Source: Flavobacterium sp. (GTDB lineage: Bacteria; Bacteroidota; Bacteroidia; Flavobacteriales; Flavobacteriaceae). From it: a stretch of 64,000 nt of DNA. Below the pieces are notes generated by a model. It did no database searches and was not told the origin of the DNA. It saw only the letters and a list, made by a program, of their open reading frames with translations. The position numbers and the translations under genes are program-made. Shown one piece after another: positions 32,556 to 60,668 of the stretch. Position 1 is the first letter of the stretch, and every line of letters starts with the position of its first letter. The stretch covers positions 1 to 64,000 of the forward strand of contig NZ_SEBR01000010.1 of the NCBI RefSeq assembly GCF_004295795.1, written 5' to 3'.

Positions 32556-33521
32556 CTATTTCTTCATCACTTTCACCACTTTTGTCTTTTCCCCAATCTT
32601 GATTTTCGCCAGATATATTCCTATCGGCAAATGCGTCAGATCGATCGTGTTTCCCGATATTTTCTGAGGTGCGACAACCATTTTTCCGTCGAGGGCAAAA
32701 ATCGAAAATACGCAATTTTCGTCTGAGTTGACATGGATTTCTCCGGATGTCGGATTCGGATAGACACTGACTTCCGACAAATCCTGATCATTGACGCCAA
32801 GCGATTGCTGATGGATCACACCGACGGCCTGCAGGTCGAATCCGCAAGAATTGAATGGCGTGGGAAACGAATCGTTCACGGCGTTTCCGAAACTGTCTTG
32901 AGAAGCGAAATCAGGGTTGATCGATCCTACGACGTCGATGATTTTGACATGTGTGATACTATTCTTGTCCAAAAGCGCATCGTCAGGCAAATCGGACAAA
33001 TCGAAAGGCGTTCCGTAAAGCGCGGCATATTTTCCGGCGAGATTGTTCAGATACGGCGCAGAAGGCGTTCCGAATGAACCTATTTGGGTCGCGGTCTCCG
33101 TTTGGCTGTGATTCGGAAAACGGAAAAAATGCTGTCCGTCAGAACTCACTTCGACAAATGCCAATTCGAGATAAGCCGTGCTGCCGTTTTCAAAAACCGC
33201 GAAGTCGAACCCTTCGTCATTTCGGACGGCAGAGTCAAAAGTTGCGATCGCAAAACCGCCATCGCCAAGACTTACGGTGTTTCCGTCGGGAAAACCTGTC
33301 GCGTACTCCGGAAGTCCGGCCGAGGCGAAATTGCTTCCGGCGGCGGTAAGAGTCGGATTCGAAATATTGACATACCCGCGCTCGACCGAAATTTCCGTTG
33401 CCCAAGCGACAAAATTCGGGCTTTCTTTGGGAATCGCAGTCGAACCGGCCTCGCCCGCAGCCGGTGGATAACTTTGGGCGAGACAAGTCAGACTTAGAAA
33501 ACAGAGCAGCGAAAAACGCAT
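32556..33521 (-). CDS. T9SS type A sorting domain-containing surface protein (candidate cobalamin-regulon member)
   Basis: Signal peptide; YPNPTSGEIHVNSDENCVFSIFALDGKMV...KTKVVKVMKK CTD; directly downstream of riboswitch-controlled gene 33521-34816. Confidence 0.87.
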   Translation of the reverse strand: MRFSLLCFLSLTCLAQSYPPAAGEAGSTAIPKESPNFVAWATEISVERGYVNISNPTLTAAGSNFASAGLPEYATGFPDGNTVSLGDGGFAIATFDSAVRNDEGFDFAVFENGSTAYLELAFVEVSSDGQHFFRFPNHSQTETATQIGSFGTPSAPYLNNLAGKYAALYGTPFDLSDLPDDALLDKNSITHVKIIDVVGSINPDFASQDSFGNAVNDSFPTPFNSCGFDLQAVGVIHQQSLGVNDQDLSEVSVYPNPTSGEIHVNSDENCVFSIFALDGKMVVAPQKISGNTIDLTHLPIGIYLAKIKIGEKTKVVKVMKK

Positions 33522-34816
33522 TATTTTACGAGGATTTTTGTCGTGACGACGCCTTTTTGCGTGGCGATTTGCGCCAGATATTGTCCCGATTGCAAGCTTG
33601 TCACGTCAATACCAAGTTGGTTTGACGCATTTTGTTCGAGTACTTTTCGTCCGGTGAGATCGAATAGAGAGACCGGGACGACTTCTTCGGAATTCACGAA
33701 AAACTTGTCGCTTGTTGGGTTTGGATACGCGAACAACGCCAATTTTCGAGTAGGATTCGGAACGGACAAATTCGGTTCGGCTTTGTAGAAACCGTTCGGG
33801 ATCACGCCGACGACATAATTTGTGACTGCCGTGCCGTTAGCGTCATAAACAAAGGCCGTTCCTGGGGAAACGTAATTTCCGGCGTCGGCTACATAGAGTT
33901 TTCCGTCGATGAAATTGAGTCCGTAAATGCCGTAAACGCCTTGTTCGCCAAGAGCGATTATCGCCGGAGCGTTCAATCCCAAAGAAGAGATTTCGCCTTT
34001 GTACACGTTCGCGTCGTTGGTAAAGAAAATACTTCCGTTGCCCGAACTTTGTAAATTCGCCGGATTCATGCCGTTCCAAGTAAGGCTTTCCTCGACCTCA
34101 TTGTCGCTGAGGTCGATCTTGTAAAGTCCGCCGGAGGTTTGCGTTCCTGACCAAGACGGTTTCCCGCCGCACAAAACGTAAAGGAATCCGTTGTCGACCA
34201 CATAAGAATTCGGGACGTCGCCAACTGCAATCGAAGTCGTGAGCGTCTCGGTTTGAGGATTCACGATCGATACCGAATTCCCGAATCCGTAACCGCCTTG
34301 ATGCAAAATGTAAAGTTGGTTATTGATTGCCGCAATGCGCTCGGCACCTTCAGCAAGCGGGATCGTGTTTTCCACGATGTTAGTTTCCAAATCGAGAACC
34401 GCGAGGTAGTCGTCGTTTGCGTTTGCGCCGCTTCCCCAATTGGTAATGAAGCCTTTTCCATCGACAAAAGCCATATACCGCGGATTGTTCAAACCTGTAC
34501 TAACAGTAGCGACGAGTTCGAAAGTCATGCGGTCGACGATTTTTATCGTGTTGGAAATATTGAGTACGATGTAAGCGTAATTTCCGTAGAACGTCAGGCT
34601 TTGTGCCGTGTCACCCAAAGATCCGGCCGACGGATTCGCGCTTGCGAAAATGTTGTTCTGTAGCGATCCTGAGTTTGGGATGTAGGAAACCGAGGCGTTG
34701 TTGCTTCCGGCTCCGCCTTCGTTGAGCACGAAAATGCCGTTGTCGAACGATTGCGCATCGGCTGCGACCGAAATCAGTCCAAAAAGCATTGCAAAAAAAG
34801 TGTAGATATGTTTCAT
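33521..34816 (-). CDS. YncE-like/DUF5074-type beta-propeller surface protein with T9SS type A CTD; BtuG-like candidate
   Basis: MKHIYTFFAMLFGLISVAADAQSFDNGIFVLNEGG...TIKIVDRMTFELVATVSTGLNNPRYMAFVDGKGFITNWG...; CTD FAYPNPTSDKFFVNSEEVVPVSLFDLTGRKVLEQ; preceded by cobalamin riboswitch. Confidence 0.85.
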   Translation of the reverse strand: MKHIYTFFAMLFGLISVAADAQSFDNGIFVLNEGGAGSNNASVSYIPNSGSLQNNIFASANPSAGSLGDTAQSLTFYGNYAYIVLNISNTIKIVDRMTFELVATVSTGLNNPRYMAFVDGKGFITNWGSGANANDDYLAVLDLETNIVENTIPLAEGAERIAAINNQLYILHQGGYGFGNSVSIVNPQTETLTTSIAVGDVPNSYVVDNGFLYVLCGGKPSWSGTQTSGGLYKIDLSDNEVEESLTWNGMNPANLQSSGNGSIFFTNDANVYKGEISSLGLNAPAIIALGEQGVYGIYGLNFIDGKLYVADAGNYVSPGTAFVYDANGTAVTNYVVGVIPNGFYKAEPNLSVPNPTRKLALFAYPNPTSDKFFVNSEEVVPVSLFDLTGRKVLEQNASNQLGIDVTSLQSGQYLAQIATQKGVVTTKILVK

Positions 34817-34918
34817 GTTACAAAATTTACAAATGAAACATCGGGAAATGGAGAAGCGGGCGCGAACGCCAAAATGCCTCAAATCTTTTTTCCCGAAGAT
34901 TCGCGATGAATGTCGATT

Positions 34919-35085
34919 GAGGCAGGTCTCCTGGCTTGCGTCTTGGCCGCGCCTTCCCATATTTTCATACAGTGGCTTTAGGATGCGGCAAGCTTTTTAG
35001 CTTACAGTTGCGGGAACAGCTTTGGATTTTCACCAAATTCCCTTTTAATGCTTTGCGCGAAAAACGATCGGCAAGGCAACCAAAA
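34919..35085 (-). ncRNA. Cobalamin (B12) riboswitch upstream of 33521-34816
   Basis: Minus strand AAAGGGAATTTGGTGAAAATCCAAAGCTGTTCCCGCAACTGTAAGC...AAGCCAGGAGACCTGCC (B12 box). Confidence 0.95.
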
Positions 35086-35091
35086 TCGCGG

Positions 35092-35099
35092 CAAAGGTA
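35092..35099 (-). promoter_or_regulatory. -7 element for minus-strand riboswitch transcript
   Basis: TACCTTTG (TAnnTTTG) on minus strand. Confidence 0.55.
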
Positions 35100-35153
35100 A
35101 AGCAATTCTTTTCAAATTGGCAAAACGCTAAGAATTCCTTGGAATTTAAACGA

Positions 35154-35161
35154 TACCTTTG
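35154..35161 (+). promoter_or_regulatory. -7 element for plus-strand riboswitch transcript
   Basis: TACCTTTG (TAnnTTTG) on plus strand. Confidence 0.55.
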
Positions 35162-35174
35162 CGGCTTTTAAGTT

Positions 35175-35344
35175 CTTTCTTAATTCTTCAACCGGGAAAG
35201 GTTGCATGTAACGTGCATTAATAGGGAATCGTGTGCAAATCACGAGCTGTCGCGCAACTGTAAGTAACATGAGGTTTCATCTTTTTGTCCACTGTTTTTG
35301 AAATGGAAGGCAGATGAAAGCGTTACGAGCCAGGAGACCTGCCT
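35175..35344 (+). ncRNA. Cobalamin (B12) riboswitch upstream of fabH paralogue/DUF71 operon
   Basis: AATAGGGAATCGTGTGCAAATCACGAGCTGTCGCGCAACTGTAAGT...ACGAGCCAGGAGACCTGCC. Confidence 0.96.
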
Positions 35345-35586
35345 TTTTTGAATTGACGGTACTTTCGCGATTTGAAGTGTTTGTCAGGTGATGTCTGTTT
35401 TCCGGAAGCCTTTGTTTTCGGGAGATCGCTTTTTCAAAACGTCGCCTTTTCAATGATTTCCGCAAATTACCTCGAAGCGAGGCAGGATTTTTGACGACAA
35501 CAACCAATCAATAAAAAGTTGGGCGGCGAATGTTTATTTCCGTCAAGCGGATTTTTCGCGCCCTTTCAGCACATCAAGACAACACA

Positions 35587-36579
35587 GTGAACCACAACCA
35601 AAAAACCACAGCAAGAATTTCAGGCATTGGCGGATTCGTTCCAGACACGATTCTCGACAACGCGCAACTCGAGCAAATGGTCGATACAAGCGATCTTTGG
35701 ATTACCTCGCGAACCGGGATCAAACAACGAAGAATTGTCGGGAACGACGATTTTGCGACTTCGGACCTTGCTGCGAAAGCGATCGCGAATCTTTTCGAAA
35801 ACACTTCGATTTTACCCGATCAAGTCGAATGCGTGATTCTCGCCACGGCAACTCCGGATGAAATGCTCGCGCCTACGGCAGCTGTCGTATGTCAAAAATC
35901 GGGGCTCGAAAAAGCCTGGGGATTCGACCTTGGCGCAGCGTGCAGCGGATTTCTATACGCGTTGTCAGTAGGAGCAAGCCTCATCGAAAGCGGACGACAC
36001 ACACACGTAATTGTAGTCGGCGCAGACAAAATGAGTTCGATCGTGAATTACGAAGACCGAAACACCTGCATTCTTTTTGGTGACGGAGCCGGAGCGGTTT
36101 TGCTTTCGGCGAATTACGATGGTTTTGGCGTGCAACAAAGCATTTTTGGTTCGGACGGAGACGGCGCGCAATATCTTTCGGTTCCCGCCGGAGGTTCCAA
36201 AATGCCCGCCTCGCAGGAAACTGTCGCATCCAAACAACATTTCGTGCAACAAGACGGGAAAACCGTTTTCAAGCAGGCAGTGCGCAAGATGGGCGAGAGT
36301 TGCATCGAGCTTTTGAATCTGGCCAAAATCGGGAACGAACAGGTCGATTGGGTAATTCCGCATCAGGCGAACCTTCGCATCATAAAAGCCGTCGGTGAAC
36401 AAATCGGTATCGATCCCGACAAGTTCAAGATCAATATCGAACGTTACGGAAACACAACCGCAGCCACGATTCCACTCGCGCTTTGGGATTTCAAAGACGA
36501 TTTCAAAGCGGGCGACAATGTGGTTTTGACGGCGTTTGGCGCGGGATTCACTTGGGGAAGTACCTATGTGAAATGGTAA
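35587..36579 (+). CDS. 3-oxoacyl-ACP synthase III family (FabH) paralogue
   Basis: ISGIGGFVPDTILDNAQLEQMVDTSDLWITSRTGIKQRRI...DLGAACSGFLYAL...INIERYGNTTAATIPLAL; GTG start at 35587 (ORF open to 35530). Confidence 0.93.
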   Translation: MNHNQKTTARISGIGGFVPDTILDNAQLEQMVDTSDLWITSRTGIKQRRIVGNDDFATSDLAAKAIANLFENTSILPDQVECVILATATPDEMLAPTAAVVCQKSGLEKAWGFDLGAACSGFLYALSVGASLIESGRHTHVIVVGADKMSSIVNYEDRNTCILFGDGAGAVLLSANYDGFGVQQSIFGSDGDGAQYLSVPAGGSKMPASQETVASKQHFVQQDGKTVFKQAVRKMGESCIELLNLAKIGNEQVDWVIPHQANLRIIKAVGEQIGIDPDKFKINIERYGNTTAATIPLALWDFKDDFKAGDNVVLTAFGAGFTWGSTYVKW

Positions 36580-37273
36580 AATCGGATGCAAAAAAGACGT
36601 ATTTCAATTGGAGCAGCGGCAAAGATTCGGCCATGGCGCTTTTTGAGTTGTTGCAGGATAAAAGCTATGATGTCTCGTATTTGCTGACTTCGGTAAATGC
36701 CGTTTTGGATCGGGTTACGATGCATGGCGTTCGGGCGGAATTACTCGACAAACAATTGGAAGCGATTGGAATTCCGAGCGGAAAAGTGCTTTTGCCCGAG
36801 CATCCGACAAATCTCGAGTACGAGAAATTGATGGCTCAAAAAGTGTCCGAACTAAAACAAGACGGTTTTACCCATGCGGCTTTCGGCGATATTTTCCTGG
36901 AGGACTTGCGGATTTATCGGGAAACACAATTGGCATCTTTTGGAATCGAGACCGTTTTTCCGATTTGGGGAAGAAACACAAAGGATTTGATGCGGAATTT
37001 CGTGCAATCCGGATGCAAGGCGATCGTGGTTTGTGCCGATGCGTCGAAGCTCGACAAAGTTGGGTCGGAAAAGCAATCGATGCCGATTTTGTCGATTCGC
37101 TTCCCGAAAATGTCGATGCTTGCGGCGAAAATGGTGAATTCCATACGTTTTGTTTCGACGCTCCGTTTTTTGCGAATCCAGTCGCTTTTTCGGTTGGGGA
37201 AATCGTTTATCGCGAATATGAATCCGAAGGTTGCCAATCCGGATTCTGGTTTTGTGACTTGCTTCCGGCCTAA
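36573..37273 (+). pseudogene. DUF71/COG2102 (Dph6-like) ATP-pyrophosphatase, interrupted by a 1-nt frameshift near 37056-37060
   Basis: N-part TYFNWSSGKDSAMALFELLQ...FGDIFLEDLRIYRETQLASFGIETVFPIWGRNTKDLM...CADASKLDK in one frame; C-part WVGKAIDADFVDSLPENVDACGENGEFHTFCFDAPFFANPVAFSVGEIVYREYESEGCQSGFWFCDLLPA in another. Confidence 0.88.
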
Positions 37274-37336: not shown

Positions 37337-37729
37337 ATGGAAATGACAAGAGAAGAGAGAATTGCGAAGTCAGAAACCCGAATTTTTAAAGCCGTTTTTC
37401 CCAATACGACCAATCATTACGACACACTTTTCGGCGGAACGGCCATGCAGCTTATGGACGAAGTGGCTTTTATCACAGCCACGCGTTTTAGCAGACAGCG
37501 AATGGTGACCGTAAGTAGCGATCGCATCGATTTCAAAAAGGCAATTCCGGGAGGAACGATTATCGAATTGATCGGGAAAGTGACTTATCTGGGAAATACG
37601 AGTCTCAAGGTCAAAGTCGATATCTACATCGAGCAAATGTATTCGGAACATCGCGAAAAGGCCGTGAGTGGCGACTTTACGTTTGTGGCGATCGATGCCG
37701 ACAAAAATTCCGTCAAGATCGAACATTGA
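37337..37729 (+). CDS. acyl-CoA thioesterase (hotdog fold)
   Basis: VFPNTTNHYDTLFGGTAMQLMDEVAFITATRFSRQRMVTVSSDRIDF. Confidence 0.93.
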   Translation: MEMTREERIAKSETRIFKAVFPNTTNHYDTLFGGTAMQLMDEVAFITATRFSRQRMVTVSSDRIDFKKAIPGGTIIELIGKVTYLGNTSLKVKVDIYIEQMYSEHREKAVSGDFTFVAIDADKNSVKIEH

Positions 37730-60447: not shown

Positions 60448-60526
60448 AGCAAAACCTCGAAAAAAGCAAATTTTCCAACAGCCAAAAACGCTTGCAAAAC
60501 ACAAACAGCGATCCAAGCCGAAAGTC

Positions 60527-60668
60527 CTAGCCCCGATAGCAGCGGCTAGCCTTTTGCCCAAAGCAAACTAGGTTTGCCCAAAAGCCGCAGCGACCGGAGG
60601 AAGCTCGCGGGTTTTGGTACAAACCTTTTGTTTTGGGTGAAAGCTACTAGCGGATAGCGGGATTCAGC
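60527..60668. repeat. Long imperfect inverted repeat (structured intergenic element)
   Basis: CTAGCCCCGATAGCAGCGGCTAGCCTTTTGCCCAAA versus reverse complement of TTTTGGGTGAAAGCTACTAGCGGATAGCGGGA. Confidence 0.7.

Follow-up and report, generated by a model that had tools for sequence, protein, structure and literature searches.

Divergent cobalamin riboswitches of two types in a Flavobacterium genome, heading putative B12-capture genes and a possible B12-sparing acyl-CoA operon

A sequence-only reading of 64 kb of Flavobacterium sp. DNA (RefSeq assembly GCF_004295795.1, contig NZ_SEBR01000010.1, positions 1 to 64,000; this whole stretch is referred to here as the window) suggested that complete cobalamin riboswitches lie back to back on the two strands and co-regulate the genes on either side. 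The locus raises the question of whether both riboswitches are genuine and, if so, what the two divergent sets of genes would have in common. We identified the following elements in the intergenic region:

34904..35099, minus strand: cobalamin riboswitch aptamer, btuB type (RF00174, 117.5 bits, E 8e-29)
35182..35360, plus strand: cobalamin riboswitch aptamer, metE type (RF00174, 95.8 bits, E 1e-22)
35092..35099, minus strand: TACCTTTG -7 box of the minus promoter, fitting TAnnTTTG
35154..35161, plus strand: TACCTTTG -7 box of the plus promoter, fitting TAnnTTTG

Scanning the 64-kb window with all Rfam models (cmscan) gave two RF00174 matches and no more, each covering the full model (positions 1-189) with a score far above the gathering score of 31.5. 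The claim of complete riboswitches on both strands is borne out by these full-length matches (117.5 bits on the minus strand and 95.8 bits on the plus strand), and the Rfam check, for which a hit on a single strand had been named as the refuting outcome, returned true matches on both. The divergent aptamers are separated by 82 bp, and their 17-nt B12 boxes (34920-34936 and 35328-35344) are perfect reverse complements of each other. The extent originally proposed, 34919-35344, falls on real elements but is too short, because together with the hairpins downstream of the aptamers they span 34881-35378. B12 co-regulation of both sides would follow naturally from two divergent switches; however, the description of the two sides as one regulon overlooks the different switch types, the different functions of the flanking genes, and a third cobalamin riboswitch at G000:C6, which precedes the genome's own btuB-btuG and lies beside btuF, btuC, and btuD. 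Compared with known RF00174 riboswitches, the two window elements are alike in fitting the model and in each heading a B12-linked gene or a putative B12-sparing operon, and they differ in forming a divergent pair of two switch types at so short a distance. Elsewhere in the window (60525-60668, plus strand), there is an Rfam Flavo-1 RNA with a long insert, a second copy of which is present in L179.

The identical -7 boxes that had been reported before the two switches are indeed present (35099-35092 on the minus strand and 35154-35161 on the plus strand). They are the only TAnnTTTG matches in 34800-35600, and the whole window contains 55 such matches on both strands. The sigma-A box mapped in F. 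psychrophilum is TAnnTTTG, located at -12 to -5 (PMC9723704). A -33-like TTTG is located 21 bp upstream of the minus box only, the plus box having none, and the minus transcript start predicted from the box coincides with the beginning of P1. What had been described as one shared promoter region is a pair of adjacent promoters, with one TACCTTTG box per strand. Between these promoters is a perfect dyad (35132-35148, AATTCC-TT-GGAATT), which could be an operator.

The nearest relatives of the plus aptamer are switches before metE in other species (78-80% identity), and those of the minus aptamer are btuB-type switches (70-72% identity), while the two window aptamers are 56% identical to each other. 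This low identity and the different nearest relatives rule out an inverted duplication of one switch; judging from the aptamer sequences, the two switches are independently derived and were united rather than copied. No other divergent pair nearer than several kilobases was found among the RF00174 matches listed for about 160 genomes, a search that weak matches can escape, and when 400 genomes of the genus were searched with a pattern specific for this spacing, only the window pair was found. A layout like that of the window occurs in G190 (L092, 3334-4960), where fabH is divergent from a riboswitch-btuB-btuG operon; a search for a fabH-side (plus-strand) switch in that genome found none.

The minus riboswitch precedes two genes:

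33521..34816, minus strand: BtuG-like beta-propeller protein (DUF5074) with a T9SS sorting tail (PF16819, PF18962)
32556..33521, minus strand: second protein with a T9SS sorting tail (PF18962 only), its N-terminal part belonging to no known family

The second of these genes overlaps the stop codon of the BtuG-like gene. The best solved relatives of the BtuG-like protein are BtuG structures, including 3dsm and 8okv (E 1e-22 to 1e-24), and the homology covers the seven-bladed propeller (residues 25-343). In Bacteroides, BtuG captures B12 with femtomolar affinity, and a B12 riboswitch gives approximately 70-fold repression by B12 (PMC6143338). The window protein is like Bacteroides BtuG (3DSM) in belonging to the same beta-propeller family over 318 residues and in being encoded behind a cobalamin riboswitch, but its N-terminus (MKHIYTFFAMLFGLISVAADAQ) contains no lipobox cysteine, it carries the PF18962 T9SS tail instead, and there is no btuB beside its gene. 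We call it BtuG-like because it lacks this mark of the surface lipoprotein BtuG. With a T9SS tail and no btuB neighbor, this propeller (33521-34816, minus strand) may bind B12 as a secreted protein or through another kind of anchor. A role of the minus side in B12 capture or uptake is well supported.

The plus riboswitch precedes three genes, of which the middle one is interrupted:

35590..36579, plus strand: second FabH (beta-ketoacyl-ACP synthase III; TIGR00747, 359.7 bits versus a cut-off of 292.1)
36573..37273, plus strand: Dph6-like (Diphthami_syn_2) ATP-pyrophosphatase, frameshifted near 37060 (PF01902 in two frames)
37343..37729, plus strand: hotdog-fold (4HBT) acyl-CoA thioesterase (PF03061)

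The FabH paralogue, for which a GTG start was set by comparison with the starts of its relatives, has the Cys-His-Asn active site (motifs AACSGF, IPHQAN, and YGNTTAA) and shares 53% identity with the genome's housekeeping FabH. In a FabH tree, it sits on a long branch and clusters (96/88) with homologues from the G134 group and from G190, the latter encoded by the divergent fabH described above. FabH proteins with and without an associated switch are intermixed in this tree, so that switch control must have been acquired or abandoned repeatedly. Compared with intact relatives of 245-255 residues (L104 and L105; G161 and G024), the reading frame of the Dph6-like gene shifts by one base in a run of A near 37060, through either a real pseudogene mutation or an assembly error; the gene product scores 43.1 bits against the Dph6 diphthine-ammonia ligase model TIGR03679, below the cut-off of 197.3. 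The closest solved structures of the thioesterase are acyl-CoA hydrolases. It shares the 4HBT hotdog domain with YciA-type acyl-CoA thioester hydrolases, but it differs from them in lying under a cobalamin riboswitch and in scoring far below the YciA equivalog cut-off (NF007970, 47.7 versus 162 bits), for which reason we file it only as a 4HBT acyl-CoA thioesterase.

Crossing the listed match positions of thioesterases and riboswitches revealed that at least 18 of about 111 thioesterase cases in the genus have a same-strand riboswitch no more than about 3 kb upstream, compared with about 0.1 expected (our own estimate from about two switches per 4-Mb genome). The gene orders vary: switch-metE-fabH-thioesterase (Pedobacter and Mucilaginibacter), switch-metE-CWC protein-thioesterase (G238), switch-fabH-thioesterase (G033, G322, G090, G278, and F. 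macacae), switch-thioesterase-fabH (G142), switch-Dph6-thioesterase (G161 and G024), switch-nrdB-nrdA-thioesterase (G022, G206, and G204), and, in several genomes, switch-thioesterase without a further partner. Both metE and nrdAB are B12-independent replacements under B12 riboswitches and form an isozyme category of the B12 regulon (PMC3766115); fabH and the thioesterase gene are not among the regulon categories of that study. The thioesterase resembles these B12-repressed genes in sharing riboswitch operons with metE (in Pedobacter, Mucilaginibacter, and G238) and nrdBA (in G022, G206, and G204), and thus shows the repeated placement under cobalamin riboswitches that marks a B12-sparing gene. 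MetE and NrdAB are isozymes of B12-dependent enzymes; the thioesterase and FabH are not, and would instead bypass or relieve such an enzyme. Because the thioesterase is found with metE, with nrdAB, and also alone, it is likely another answer to B12 shortage. Several observations count against a sparing role: in many Flavobacterium genomes no riboswitch lies near the thioesterase gene, FabH has repeatedly come under or escaped switch control, and the Dph6-like gene of the window is frameshifted. In the open-access literature searched, we found no earlier report of the plus-operon genes as members of a B12 regulon. In two genomes, the thioesterase operon is headed by a switch of another model, AdoCbl (RF01482) in G204 and AdoCbl-II (RF01689) in G020. 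These switches (L121, 9089-9227, minus strand, and L109, 5791-5886, minus strand) fit one or the other of these models and not RF00174, and the operon thus seems to have changed riboswitch class.

The explanation that we favor, with moderate confidence, is that the minus side serves B12 capture and the plus side serves B12-sparing disposal of acyl-CoAs, the two being governed by independent switches with their own sigma-A promoters and both being off in the presence of B12. When cobalamin is plentiful in the cell, both aptamers would bind it and expression would fall. When cobalamin is scarce, the minus transcript would supply T9SS-exported surface proteins, one of them BtuG-like and capturing B12, and the plus transcript would supply the second FabH and the acyl-CoA thioesterase. 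With AdoCbl-dependent mutases (i.e., methylmalonyl-CoA mutase and IcmF) stalled, the pools of propionyl-, methylmalonyl-, and isobutyryl-CoA would be expected to rise; the thioesterase would then free CoA from short or branched acyl-CoAs, and FabH would use such acyl-CoAs as fatty-acid primers. In this way, the plus operon may ease the effects of B12 depletion on the cell. We infer the OFF direction, the form of the ligand, the substrates, and the relief function of the plus operon, and its role in acyl-CoA metabolism is likewise putative.

The window genome encodes methylmalonyl-CoA mutase and IcmF, both above the family cut-offs. Proteins of the methylmalonyl-CoA mutase family occur in all 57 genomes tested, with or without a thioesterase switch, and the presence of a mutase therefore did not serve as a discriminating test. 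The window genome also has a split MetH and no MetE, and it thus probably needs B12 for methionine too. Neither MetH nor MetE was detected in G090 and G022, which keep the switch and thioesterase, arguing that the role of the thioesterase does not concern methionine synthase in general. The three Flavobacterium genomes in which MetH was not found (G090, G022, and G206) may belong to methionine auxotrophs or to users of another methionine synthase.

The close relationship of the plus aptamer to metE switches could also mean that the plus switch once belonged to metE, which was then lost while fabH and the thioesterase gene stayed behind with no physiological link to B12. In addition to the absence of metE from the window genome, this is suggested by G263 (L106, 5766-5990, minus strand), in which a 74-residue metE remnant lies between the riboswitch and the thioesterase gene, i.e., metE decayed and the switch and thioesterase were kept. 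A remnant operon is nevertheless unlikely, given that several lineages have the thioesterase gene immediately after a switch, that it also follows nrdBA or Dph6 in varied orders, that the switch-linked thioesterases are only 47-83% identical to that of the window, and that neither the riboswitch nor its hairpin has decayed in sequence. Rather than relieving mutases, the plus operon might serve cobamide salvage or membrane lipid remodeling under B12 limitation, as the Dph6-like ATP-pyrophosphatase in the operons of three genomes and the role of FabH in determining the fatty-acid chain type could suggest. We consider this equally improbable, since most switch-thioesterase operons lack Dph6, the window copy is broken, and no cobamide biosynthesis gene is present in any switch-thioesterase operon.

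Comparison with relatives revealed that in both switches P1 is directly followed by an extra hairpin that the Rfam model does not cover:

34881..34902, minus strand: P13-like hairpin of the minus leader (GAAUCU...AGAUUU, loop with UCGGG), the same hairpin as in btuB-type leaders, with paired changes
35361..35378, plus strand: P13-like hairpin of the plus leader (ACUU-UCGCGAUUUG-AAGU), conserved in 35 leaders

The position of this hairpin matches that of the P13 regulatory hairpin of class-I cobalamin riboswitches. In the 35 plus-type leaders, the hairpin has the form GCUU-UCGCG-NNNNN-AAGC, with all cells paired and with G-C exchanged for A-U; the ACUU...AAGU of the window is such an exchanged pair relative to GCUU...AAGC, and the covariation score was matched in 0 of 500 shuffles. 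In 16 btuB-type leaders, the hairpin resembles GAAUCU-UCGGGAAAAA-AGAUUC, and for four of its six pairs at least one sequence carries changes in both partner bases. In many btuB leaders, about 10 nt separate the end of the hairpin from the start codon, which suggests control of translation in leaders of this type. In plus-type leaders, the hairpin is usually 50-350 nt upstream of the start codon. A terminator platform in the plus leader was unconvincing (three candidates versus 1.6 expected by chance). The P5 type and the L13 loop co-vary by lineage, a pattern broken by L071, and L5-L13 kissing as a simple AUUUG/CAAAU complement was rejected as inconsistent across sequences. It is least likely of all that the plus leader works as an ON switch or is no longer functional, leaving the usual B12 response to the minus side. 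In favor of this reading, the leader from the hairpin to the fabH start is long and has no clear platform, and the sequence at about 35307-35350 allows a hairpin (AAGGCAG...CUGCCUUUUUU) to be drawn whose formation would compete with the aptamer. Against it, the plus switch retains an intact core, B12 box, and downstream hairpin, all of them conserved, and in relatives metE, a classic B12-repressed gene, is headed by a switch of this type.

More broadly, we tentatively propose, as a possibility that falls somewhat short of probable, that Bacteroidota have a third riboswitch-controlled B12-sparing response beside metE and nrdAB, in which the thioesterase, with or without FabH, is a valve that relieves CoA sequestration at stalled AdoCbl-dependent acyl-CoA mutases and which is here placed back to back with B12 capture. 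If this is true, the swap of methionine synthase or ribonucleotide reductase would not be the sole answer of Bacteroidota to B12 shortage, which would also be met by managing the acyl-CoAs left unprocessed by the mutases. Lipid and acyl-CoA changes would be predicted under B12 limitation, and a widespread uncharacterized thioesterase and a FabH paralogue would gain a function. The divergent pair would bring capture and bypass under two switches, readable in one two-color reporter.
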